Part shown: in pieces, positions 3,123 through 63,724 of the stretch
Numbering within the stretch: position 1 is the stretch's first letter
Layout of the letters: the number at the start of each line of letters is the position of its first letter
Assembly: GCA_021805825.1 (NCBI GenBank)
Contig: JAJZEC010000012.1
Coordinates: 1-63,724 of the forward strand
Direction of reading: 5' to 3'
DNA length: 63,724 nucleotides
From: Pseudomonadota bacterium
GTDB taxonomy: Bacteria; Pseudomonadota; Gammaproteobacteria; Burkholderiales; Burkholderiaceae_C
The notes under the pieces: generated by a model
Seen by the model: the letters and a program-made list of their open reading frames with translations, nothing else
Databases searched by the model: none
Told to the model about the DNA's origin: nothing
Program-made: the position numbers and the translations under genes

Positions 3123-4205
3123 ATGCACGACTCGTCCCTGTCACCGCGGCCGCGGCAGTGGTCGTTGGCCGACTTCGATTTCGACCTCCCCGAACAGCTC
3201 ATCGCCCAGCATCCGAGCGCGGTGCGCAGCGCCAGCCGGCTGCTCGATGCGCGCGGCGTGCTGCACGACCGCGTGTTCTCCGAACTCCCCGAGCTTCTGC
3301 GCGAAGGCGATCTGCTGGTGTTCAACGACACCCGGGTGATCAAGGCGCGCCTGTTCGGCGCCAAGCCTTCGGGAGGCGCAGTGGAGTTGCTGGTCGAGCG
3401 CGTGCTCGACGGCCACGAAGTGATTGCCCACATGCGCGCCAGCCGCAAGCCGGCGCCGGGCACGCGGCTGGCGATGCACGGAGGCTTCGAAGCCGAGGTG
3501 CTGGGGCGCTGGCCCGATGCCGCCGGCGCGCTGTTCCGTCTGCGCCTGAGCGGCGAACCCCACGCATTGATGCAGCGCCACGGCCACGTGCCGCTGCCGC
3601 CCTACATCACCCACGCCGACGACGCCGACGACGAGCGGCGCTACCAGACCGTGTTCGCCCGCGTGCCCGGGTCGGTGGCGGCGCCCACCGCGGCGCTGCA
3701 CTTCGACCAGGCGCTGCTCGAGCGACTGCGCGAGCGCGGCGTGCGCAGCGCCAGCCTGACCCTGCACGTGGGCGCCGGCACCTTCCAGCCGGTGAAGGTC
3801 GACGACCCGGCGCTGCACCACATGCACAGCGAGCGCTTCGAAGTCCCCACGGGCACGCTGCAGGCGATCGCCGATACACGGGCCGCTGGCGGCCGGGTGG
3901 TCGCGGTGGGAACCACCACGGTGCGGGCGCTCGAATCGGTGGCGCGCGATGCCGGGCCGCAGGCGCTGCGCGCACCGACCCGGGACTGGAGCGGGGAGAC
4001 CGACATTTTCATCACCCCTGGGCACCGCTTCGCGTGGATCGACGTGCTGCTGACCAATTTCCACCTGCCCAGGTCGACCCTGCTGATGCTGGTCAGCGCC
4101 TTTGCCGGCATGCACACCGTCCGCGAGGCCTATGCCCATGCGGTGAAGCAGAGCTATCGCTTCTTCAGCTATGGGGATGCGATGCTGCTGCGGCGGGCCA
4201 GGTAG
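3123..4205 (+). CDS. queA: S-adenosylmethionine:tRNA ribosyltransferase-isomerase
   Basis: QueA transfers and isomerises the ribosyl part of AdoMet onto 7-aminomethyl-7-deazaguanine in tRNA, giving epoxyqueuosine. At 360 aa it matches the family (about 340-360). Conserved segments include LIAQHP near the start, [14 protein letters not shown] (about residue 61), [15 protein letters not shown] (about residue 216), the TTVRALES segment and the C-terminal [18 protein letters not shown] chose ATG 3123 because family similarity begins just after it; ATG 3075, abutting the previous stop, is in frame and would add 16 basic residues. Its usual neighbour tgt is 17 kb downstream on the same strand, beyond the NRPS/PKS island. 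Confidence 0.95.
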
Positions 4206-62297: not shown

Positions 62298-62464
62298 GGC
62301 CTGCGACGCAACACGGCGCATGCAGTCTGCGTGCAACATCTTTGTCGTTGAATGACCCGGGAAAGGACAGACATGGGGTGCTTCCCGGTGCCTTGCAGCG
62401 AAACAGCGTGAGATTTTTGTGAGGTCTGTGGAAAAAGCGCGTTTTGGACTAGCATTCGTGATGT

Positions 62465-62544
62465 TTTGGCAAACCCGTTGAAAGGCGGGGACGCAAAGCC
62501 TCCGGTCTAAAGGCTCCTTGGCCTATGACAGCGGGGTTGCCGGC
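62465..62544 (+). promoter_or_regulatory. Cyclic-di-GMP-I (GEMM-I) riboswitch aptamer
   Basis: The stretch has the class I consensus in order: GGCAAACC opening, a GAAA tetraloop on a GC stem, the core GGGACGCAAAGCCTCCGG, the CTAAAGG tetraloop receptor, then AGCGGGGTTGCC closing. GGCAA (62468-62472) pairs with TTGCC (62537-62541) as P1. It lies 120 bases upstream of the lipoprotein start on the same strand. Class I aptamers bind c-di-GMP, the biofilm second messenger, and control surface and matrix genes in many Proteobacteria. Confidence 0.93.
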
Positions 62545-62645
62545 GCGGTTGCGCGTCGTGACTTCTCGGTTCGTCAGAAGCTTCTGTCGCCTGGGCCATG
62601 TACAGGCCCTGCTGCCACGCGGCGCCGATCGGCGCCAGGCATGCA

Positions 62646-62656
62646 GGCCAGGGAGC
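62646..62656 (+). promoter_or_regulatory. Ribosome site complementary to the riboswitch
   Basis: GGCCAGGGAGC (62646-62656), which contains the AGGGAG ribosome site of the lipoprotein gene, can pair with GCTCCTTGGCC (62513-62523) inside the aptamer: 11 pairs, one of them G-U. The two structures should exclude each other, so ligand binding would free the ribosome site. Two local hairpins lie between them (62592-62609 and the perfect GGCGCC-GATC-GGCGCC at 62621-62636). No T-tract is present, which favours control of translation. Confidence 0.55.
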
Positions 62657-62664
62657 GATCGAAC

Positions 62665-63724
62665 ATGACGAACCAGCGACATTTCCCAGCGCATCTGCGC
62701 CTGTTTTTCCCCCTGGGCCTTGCCTGTCTTCTTCTCGCCGGATGCGGTGGAGGGGGTGGTGGTGGCCCTGTCGGTGCCGTCGCCAGCGTAGGCACGGGTG
62801 GCAGCGGCGCAGCAGCCGCAACGCCGACGCTTTCGACGACCAGCGCGGTCGCGACCCCAGCTGGCAATCCCTCCGCTGTGACCGTCTCGGGAAACAGCGG
62901 AACGTCCACCGGTACGACCACTGGATCGAGCAGCGGAACGTCCACCGGATCGAGCAGCGGAACGACCACCGGTACGACGGCAACCCCCCAGTCGACTGCG
63001 AGCCTTTCCGGCAGCCCGGCCACCACGGCAGTGGCCAAGACCGCCTACGCCTTCACCCCGACGGCCAGCGGATTTGACGGGCAGCCCTTGGTGTTCTCGA
63101 TTTCCAACAAGCCGGCCTGGGCGAGTTTCGACCCCTCCACCGGCACCTTGAGCGGTACGCCGACCAGCAGCGATGCCGGGAGCTACAGCGGAATCGTGAT
63201 CTCGGCCAGTGACGGCGCGCAGAGCGCATCCCTGGCGTCGTTCTCCATCCTCGTGCAGGCAGTCGCGCCCGCGCTGGCCGCAGGCGCGCCCGACGTGCTC
63301 TACACCGACGTGACTTCGGGCCCGAACTCCGGTGGCGAGAACAACGAGGGTGCCTACCTGTCGATCTTCGGCCAGAACTTCGGCAGCAGCGGGCTGGGCA
63401 CGACGGTGAAGGTCACCATCGGCGGGGTTGCGGTGAGCAACTATCGCTACCTCGGACCTTCGCGCGGGCGCCCGGACGTGCAGCAGATCACCGTCCAGGT
63501 GGGCAGCCTGGGCAATCCCACTCCGGGGGTGCCGCTGCCGATCCAGGTGGTGGTCAACGGCGTGGCTTCCAACGTCGACCATGACTTCACGGTGAACCCT
63601 GGGCGCATGCTGTTCGTCAGCCACAGCGGCAACGACGCGACGGCGGTGCCCGGGGACATCAACCATCCCTATCGCTACGTGCAGAACGGCAGCGACGGGG
63701 CCTTCGACGTGGCCAAGGCCGGCG
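62665..63724 (+). CDS. c-di-GMP-controlled surface lipoprotein, 3' end missing
   Basis: 353 codons open from ATG 62665 to the window edge. There is a lipoprotein signal with LLAGC (Cys27), a glycine run, then a Thr/Ser/Gly-rich spacer (about residues 75-110). A putative Ig-like (He_PIG) domain follows, with FDPSTGTLSGTPTSSDAGSY (about residue 153). An IPT/TIG-like domain comes next (YLSIFGQNFGSSGLG near 230, YRYLGPSRGRPDVQQ), then GRMLFVSHSGNDATAVPGD as in the left-end paralogue. AGGGAG precedes the ATG by nine bases. The layout suggests a long, stalked outer-surface protein whose missing C-terminus may be a beta-helix; a role in matrix or glycan binding is inferred. Confidence 0.85.
   Translation, partial: MTNQRHFPAHLRLFFPLGLACLLLAGCGGGGGGGPVGAVASVGTGGSGAAAATPTLSTTSAVATPAGNPSAVTVSGNSGTSTGTTTGSSSGTSTGSSSGTTTGTTATPQSTASLSGSPATTAVAKTAYAFTPTASGFDGQPLVFSISNKPAWASFDPSTGTLSGTPTSSDAGSYSGIVISASDGAQSASLASFSILVQAVAPALAAGAPDVLYTDVTSGPNSGGENNEGAYLSIFGQNFGSSGLGTTVKVTIGGVAVSNYRYLGPSRGRPDVQQITVQVGSLGNPTPGVPLPIQVVVNGVASNVDHDFTVNPGRMLFVSHSGNDATAVPGDINHPYRYVQNGSDGAFDVAKAG
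62895..62980 (+). repeat. Imperfect coding tandem repeat (Thr/Ser/Gly linker)
   Basis: Three imperfect units built on AGCGGAACG(T/A)CCACCGG, interleaved with GGATCGAGC, encode the (S/T)G-rich spacer of the lipoprotein. Repeats of this kind can change copy number by slippage, altering stalk length. Confidence 0.7.
63598..63724. repeat. Right copy of the 127-bp terminal inverted repeat
   Basis: Exact reverse complement of bases 1-127. It encodes the GRMLFVSHSGNDATAVPGD region and what follows in the right-hand lipoprotein gene, so the nucleotide identity of the two paralogues extends at least to both window ends. Confidence 0.9.

Follow-up and report, generated by a model that had tools for sequence, protein, structure and literature searches.

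The window, by which we mean the whole stretch of DNA that was analysed (63,724 nucleotides), is contig JAJZEC010000012.1, positions 1-63,724 of the forward strand (GCA_021805825.1). It carries a c-di-GMP-I riboswitch aptamer in the leader of a surface lipoprotein gene (Table 1). This gene is incomplete, as contig and window end together inside it. On the plus strand, 5' of the riboswitch, models scoring above their cut-offs identify an XrtA/PEP-CTERM glycosyltransferase (TIGR03013) and a nucleotide sugar dehydrogenase (TIGR03026). The TviB model also matches the dehydrogenase, at a score below its own cut-off, and a TviC-like epimerase is likewise matched below the cut-off of its model. The opposite strand encodes an XrtA export protein and an ATPase, both above cut-off. 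The locus adds a clear example of a c-di-GMP-I riboswitch that precedes a surface lipoprotein, here with an XrtA/PEP-CTERM exopolysaccharide locus alongside. The neighbourhood is partly shared with related loci, because tblastn detected every neighbour protein but the ATPase (four of five) in L049 and L050; the 12-18 kb stretches L045-L048 and the 11 kb stretch L051 gave no match to any of the five.

Table 1. Features of the riboswitch leader and lipoprotein gene in the window, and lipoprotein genes of related loci.
Feature	Position	Strand	Basis or remark
c-di-GMP-I (GEMM-I) riboswitch aptamer	62458..62544	+	RF01051, 80.9 bits, model 1-87 (cmscan)
Distal P3 hairpin of the aptamer, GGCU-CCUU-GGCC	62512..62523	+	cmscan alignment
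Post-aptamer hairpin, CGGCGCG-GUUG-CGCGUCG	62541..62558	+	seven genus leader sequences; predicted in folds
GUCGUGACUUCUC	62555..62567	+	identical in 7/7 genus leaders (alignment)
Start-codon stem, 5' arm, GGUUCGUCA	62568..62576	+	9 perfect pairs with 62666-62674
Local anti-SD, GCUUCU	62580..62585	+	predicted partner of 62651-62656, full-length fold
SD-containing strand, AGGCCAGGGAGC	62645..62656	+	complementary to aptamer 62513-62524
Lipoprotein gene, signal peptide ending LLLAGC, one He_PIG domain	62665..63724	+	Pfam PF05345, 39.6 bits
Start-codon stem, 3' arm, UGACGAACC	62666..62674	+	overlaps start codon
Lipoprotein gene, L045	3627-5174
Lipoprotein gene, L046	7822-10128
Lipoprotein gene, L047	8277-10421
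Lipoprotein gene, L048	8367-10553
Lipoprotein gene, L049	7685-9742
Lipoprotein gene, L050	7054-9120
Lipoprotein gene, L051	3627-7586

An Infernal search agrees with the riboswitch class proposed in the initial annotation: the aptamer matches the full RF01051 model (E 2.4e-14) at more than twice the gathering cut-off of 35 bits, and it is the sole RF01051 match in the window's genome. The cmscan alignment places a GAAA in P2 and UCUAAA/CUAUGA in P3, which correspond to the tetraloop and its receptor, and a G at 62468 (model position 11 of RF01051). This is the ligand-contacting position before P1 (G20 of Vc2), where G and not A is expected for c-di-GMP over cGAMP. With its full-length covariance-model match and its leader position 5' of a surface-protein gene, the window aptamer shares what is common in RF01051 (GEMM-I) and shows no departure from the family. 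Judged by these sequence features, it is a real, ordinary and well-formed c-di-GMP-I riboswitch, which is predicted to bind its ligand.

The leader between the aptamer and the gene contains several elements shared with six genus orthologs, which are six loci in five other genomes of the genus (L002, L003, L004, L005, L007 and L013), each with an equivalent leader 5' of the lipoprotein signal peptide. A hairpin (GGCRCG...CGYGUC), in which one pair varies between G-C, G-U and A-U among the relatives, directly follows the aptamer in all seven genus leaders, and is itself followed by GUCGUGACUUCUC, which overlaps the hairpin end. The segment GUGACUUC (62558-62565) can pair weakly with the 3' strand of aptamer P1 (8 pairs, 4 of them G·U). 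Further downstream, GCUUCU is predicted to pair with part of the ribosome site, with a pair probability of about 0.4-0.45 for most bases in the full-length fold. A terminator scan found no terminator-like site between the aptamer and the start codon, and terminator-based control was rejected on this ground; the single terminator-like match, at 62714-62726, is inside the lipoprotein gene (one found, 0.6 in shuffles). No sigma-70-type promoter was found in a scan of 62300-62900, so that a transcription start directly 5' of the aptamer is putative.

According to the initial annotation, 11 bases of the aptamer (62513-62523) are complementary to the ribosome site of the lipoprotein gene (62646-62656). 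This complementarity is present, and it is one pair longer than described (62524:62645), giving a helix of 12 pairs with one G·U in which the strand able to pair with the ribosome site is the distal hairpin region of P3. The start ATG at 62665 and the SD-like AGGGAG at 62650-62655 also lie where they had been placed. In dinucleotide-shuffled aptamers (2000 trials) the score of the helix was reached at a frequency of 0.0005 and its length at 0.0035, and in whole-leader shuffles (500) the corresponding frequencies were 0.006 and 0.02. The aptamer can form an equally good helix at 2 of the 402 RGGRG sites on both strands of the window, the real site counted. Such complementarity would be uncommon for a single riboswitch, yet it is to be expected somewhere when many windows are scanned. 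Of the 22 pairs in the aptamer model, 4 use bases that the helix also needs, and these belong to the P3 tip; 10 others would be crossed by the helix in a pseudoknot. The claim that aptamer and helix are mutually exclusive is thus borne out for the P3 tip; there exclusion is certain, and it is not so for the whole aptamer because the folding programs used cannot represent a pseudoknot.

The window leader was folded with four parameter sets (ViennaRNA default, Turner 1999, Andronescu 2007 and Langdon 2018), which describe secondary structure only, without tertiary contacts, pseudoknots or ligand, and with energies that are uncertain by several kcal/mol for a long GC-rich RNA. In a transcript that stops just before the start codon, the pairs of the 12-pair helix have probabilities near 1 (0.60 for the last pair), and the helix is prolonged by pairing of 62503-62507 with 62657-62661. 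With no coding bases, all four sets put the helix no more than 0.1 kcal/mol from their best fold. At this length an energy penalty of 12.7 kcal/mol is paid for keeping the aptamer folded, and the ribosome site then becomes easier to open, at 5.6 instead of 12.4 kcal/mol in the free RNA. As coding bases are added, structures with the helix lie above the best fold by 0.6-2.6 (12 bases), 1.8-4.4 (20 bases) and 8.1-10.3 kcal/mol (40 bases) across the four sets, and the best fold at these three lengths contains the start-codon stem in every set. The opening costs, free versus aptamer held, are then 10.4 versus 10.3 kcal/mol with 12 coding bases and 10.3 versus 10.3 kcal/mol with 20 and with 40. The predicted freeing of the ribosome site by the aptamer therefore appears in folds with 0-9 coding bases and is lost with 12 or more, where the site is equally closed in both states. 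At equilibrium this is the outcome that the initial annotation had named as refuting its model (a site paired in both states); early in transcription that outcome is not seen. In full-length leaders the opening costs with the aptamer held and free are within 0.2 kcal/mol of each other in five of the seven genus leaders, the window among them, and holding the aptamer makes the ribosome sites of L007 and L013 harder to open (by 1.9 and 0.9 kcal/mol, respectively). The window's ribosome site is 0.6 kcal/mol more open with the aptamer than in the anti-aptamer state. Because full-length leaders show no ligand-dependent opening, the folds leave the coupling between aptamer and ribosome site unexplained.

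RF01051 is present in 12 of the 28 genomes of the genus, the window's own counted. The six orthologs were compared with the window together with L051, a more distant relative with a similar architecture and 68% identity in the best protein segment. The P3 loop of the window aptamer (CCUU) is unlike those of its six genus orthologs, five of which have GAAA; L002 and L051 carry other sequences. In the six orthologs and in L051 the longest uninterrupted pairing of the P3 tip with the ribosome-site region is 3-6 pairs, compared with 12 in the window, and the duplex energies range from -6.2 to -11.5 kcal/mol versus -25.9 kcal/mol in the window. The 12-pair helix is thus not conserved: none of the six orthologs has it, nor does L051, and among the leaders examined it is private to the window's species. 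A start-codon stem is found at the matching place in seven of these eight leaders, comprising all seven genus leaders; L051 lacks it by that criterion. The paired strands are GGUUCGUCA:UGACGAACC in the window, where the stem sits in a shifted register, CUGUAGAU:GUCUACAG in L003, CUGUAGAC:GUCUACAG in L004 and L005, UGUAGACG:CGUCUACA in L007 and L013, and UGCAGAUGC:GUAUCUGCA in L002. Two pairs are changed on both sides between L002 and L004 (C-G versus U-A, and U-A versus C-G). Single stems are modest against shuffles, with p 0.013-0.049 for six leaders, 0.25 for L003 and 0.43-0.46 for L051. The case for the stem is its recurrence in seven of the eight, which is weakened by the kinship of the leaders.

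In the family, RF01051 is present in 116 of 399 genomes. We read 103 leaders, comprising 15 genus loci (L001-L015), 28 family loci and 60 further matches taken in order of score from those listed, with lower-scoring ones left aside; L016, which is below the cut-off, was excluded, and L155 was kept despite failing the orientation motif check. Start codons were assigned by rule to 92 of the 103 leaders, 11 having no accepted start, and the rule-chosen starts look wrong in some (e.g., L021, L025, L147 and L158). The tests treat related leaders as independent. In these 92 leaders the ribosome-binding site (RBS) pairs with its own platform better than with permuted ones (mean -18.43 versus -17.04 kcal/mol, with none of 5000 permutations as low) and only slightly better with its own aptamer, positions 35-90 (-17.76 versus -17.31 kcal/mol, p 0.043). 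No enrichment was detected for pairing of the RBS with its own P3 tip (92 leaders, p 0.25). A general anti-SD role of P3 tips is not supported, as anti-SD pieces occur in 4 of 103 tips versus 3.0 in shuffles. The pairing in the window is the strongest between P3 tip and RBS among the 92 leaders, and it ranks first in its row and in its column of the matrix of all swaps, in which 16 of the 8464 tip-RBS combinations are as good or better.

Two 7-mers recur in the family platforms (GGCCCTC in 16 and GGCCTCG in 14 of 92); across 20 shuffled sets the most frequent 7-mer reached a count of 7-12. The 3' strand of P1 finds a downstream partner more often than it does in shuffles (0.75 versus 0.64, Wilcoxon p 2e-7, uncorrected for kinship) in the 68 of 92 leaders that could be used, 24 having been dropped for lack of a recognised P1 or for a short platform; taken one by one, none of the seven genus leaders reaches significance for it (p 0.15-0.40). 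One strand is both anti-aptamer and anti-RBS in 33 of 64 leaders, where 26.4 would be expected (p 0.037), and the window is not among them, so that a single strand serving both functions in all leaders is only weakly supported and was set aside. By sequence statistics of this kind, the family signals point towards a platform-based masking similar to that of Vc2. Further platform features were noted in the family. Nine leaders (L143, L144, L151, L164, L165, L166, L171, L172 and L199) have a second platform, TGGCCTCG ... CGAGGC, directly 5' of the start codon, which resembles by eye an SD-masking hairpin. The platforms of L038, L042 and L176 contain a near-perfect complement of the P1 3' strand (e.g., CGGCAACCCCT), an explicit anti-P1 element.

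Taken together, we favour, with a probability of roughly 0.7, the reading that the 5' leader of this surface lipoprotein gene holds a canonical c-di-GMP-I riboswitch, which most likely controls translation initiation, since there is no terminator-like site between the aptamer and the gene. The 33 GGDEF matches in the window's genome count in favour of this reading. Binding of c-di-GMP would stabilise the aptamer, and the ribosome site, about 105 bases past it, is predicted to lie within a hairpin domain whose closing stem joins the platform to the first codons. The 12-pair helix could form during transcription of the start region, before the start-codon stem can, and could therefore bias folding towards sequestration when no ligand is bound. 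We infer both the translational control and any co-transcriptional role of the 12-pair helix. For the helix itself, the best reading is that it is species-specific and would act at most co-transcriptionally.

How ligand binding would be transmitted to the ribosome site can be read in several ways. The initial annotation proposed an ON switch, in which 62513-62524 blocks the ribosome site without c-di-GMP, and the ligand, by holding P3, frees it. The low shuffle frequencies of the helix (0.0005-0.02, by measure and control), its first rank among the 92 leaders and in its own row and column of the swap matrix, its probability near 1 before the start codon and its position within 0.1 kcal/mol of the best fold in four parameter sets are in line with this proposal. 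However, the P3 tips of all six genus orthologs and of L051 reach only 3-6 contiguous pairs at most, the 92 leaders lack enrichment for P3-tip:RBS pairing (p 0.25; anti-SD pieces in 4 of 103 tips versus 3.0), and with 12-40 coding bases the helix is 0.6-10.3 kcal/mol above the best fold with equal opening costs, which makes the proposed switch unlikely. The initial annotation is supported in part: its riboswitch class is right, and its 12-pair switch is disfavoured, the pairing being absent from six of six orthologs and from L051 and the site being equally closed once 12 or more coding bases are present; the ON direction is without support beyond the window's species. A narrower version, in which a recent change in the P3-tip loop made a 12-pair anti-SD lock that acts only co-transcriptionally, before about a dozen coding bases emerge, would make the decision kinetic and rewired relative to the orthologs. 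We consider it rather unlikely too; if such a species-specific lock were functional, an expression platform would have been rewired rapidly while its aptamer stayed nearly the same.

A translational OFF switch similar to Vc2 is a more serious candidate, although we regard it as tentative. Without ligand, the 3' strand of P1 would pair downstream, with GGCCCUCG in the family and perhaps with GUGACUUC in the window, where it would extend the post-aptamer hairpin; the ligand would restore P1 and free a masking anti-SD. The excess of downstream P1 pairing over shuffles (0.75 versus 0.64 in 68 leaders) and the recurrent 7-mers (16 and 14 of 92 platforms versus 7-12 in shuffled sets) agree with such a switch, as do the Vc2 precedent in PMC9262584, the aptamer minus anti-aptamer energies of -0.8 to +4.7 kcal/mol in six of seven genus leaders (9.8 kcal/mol in L013) and the more closed sites predicted for L007 and L013 with the aptamer held. 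Within the genus, however, the P1 pairing has p 0.15-0.40 in the seven leaders and includes four G·U pairs, the aptamer leaves the opening cost unchanged in five of the seven, and the shared anti-aptamer/anti-RBS strand is found in just 33 of 64 leaders (26.4 expected, p 0.037), the window not being one of them. An OFF switch of this kind fits the family about as well as an ON switch does. Another route to an ON switch would pair the P1 3' strand GGUUGC, without ligand, with GCRAYC between the SD and the start codon. Each of the seven genus leaders can form six such pairs and L051 five, and G/A and C/U differences among them preserve the pairing, but the helix is short, contains two G·U pairs in the window and is absent from the best folds examined, and the GCRAYC bases also match the P3 5' strand in six of eight leaders; we consider this route very unlikely. 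The comparison shows that a striking match between aptamer and ribosome site in one genome does not alone reveal the platform, as the relatives keep the leader without the match.

In PMC11218506, c-di-GMP-I riboswitches are described as generally controlling termination or translation, via terminators or via sequesters and anti-sequesters. PMC9262584 describes Vc2 as a translational OFF switch with P1 as the key element, and considers two aptamers that are close relatives yet serve as ON and OFF switches. The window resembles the Vc2 riboswitch of Vibrio cholerae (Inuzuka et al. 2018, as cited in PMC9262584) in having its ribosome site far from the aptamer and presumably in being controlled at translation; the likeness is one of arrangement. 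It shares with the Bc1 riboswitch of Bacillus thuringiensis, as described in PMC11218506, a long expression platform and a ribosome site and AUG that are trapped in structure in one state, whereas Bc1 has two intrinsic terminators and none was found between aptamer and gene in the window. Among papers judged by title or the start of the abstract, none dealt with such a platform in this group, which is not proof of absence.

Similar riboswitch leaders and lipoprotein signal peptides precede differing mature proteins in the window and in L045-L051. The passengers include proteins of 515 amino acids in L045 and 685 amino acids in L049, both without a Pfam match, proteins with beta-helix matches in L046 (below the Pfam cut-off) and L047 (above it), and He_PIG stretches, one in the incomplete protein of the window and eight in L051. 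The leader and signal peptide look like a module that is reused with swapped passengers. L049 (G012:C63) and L050 (G012:C81) are two similar riboswitch-lipoprotein-XrtA exopolysaccharide loci on separate contigs of one genome, reflecting either a duplication or a mixed assembly.

Of the 70 loci retrieved with the lipoprotein, 14 match a one-strand c-di-GMP-I core pattern, at 18 places in total (L051, L061, L064, L070, L079, L086, L090, L092, L093, L096, L101, L105, L109 and L113), and an Rfam scan of 10 of those 70 loci gave 7 with a c-di-GMP-I or c-di-GMP-I-GGC match. It seems that c-di-GMP-I riboswitches are repeatedly found close to such surface proteins in distant lineages, the distance to the gene having been checked for some loci. 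In L061, candidate ATG codons lie about 10-13 bases past the end of a c-di-GMP-I aptamer (3614-3720), and a second riboswitch and lipoprotein gene are found 1 kb downstream of the first.
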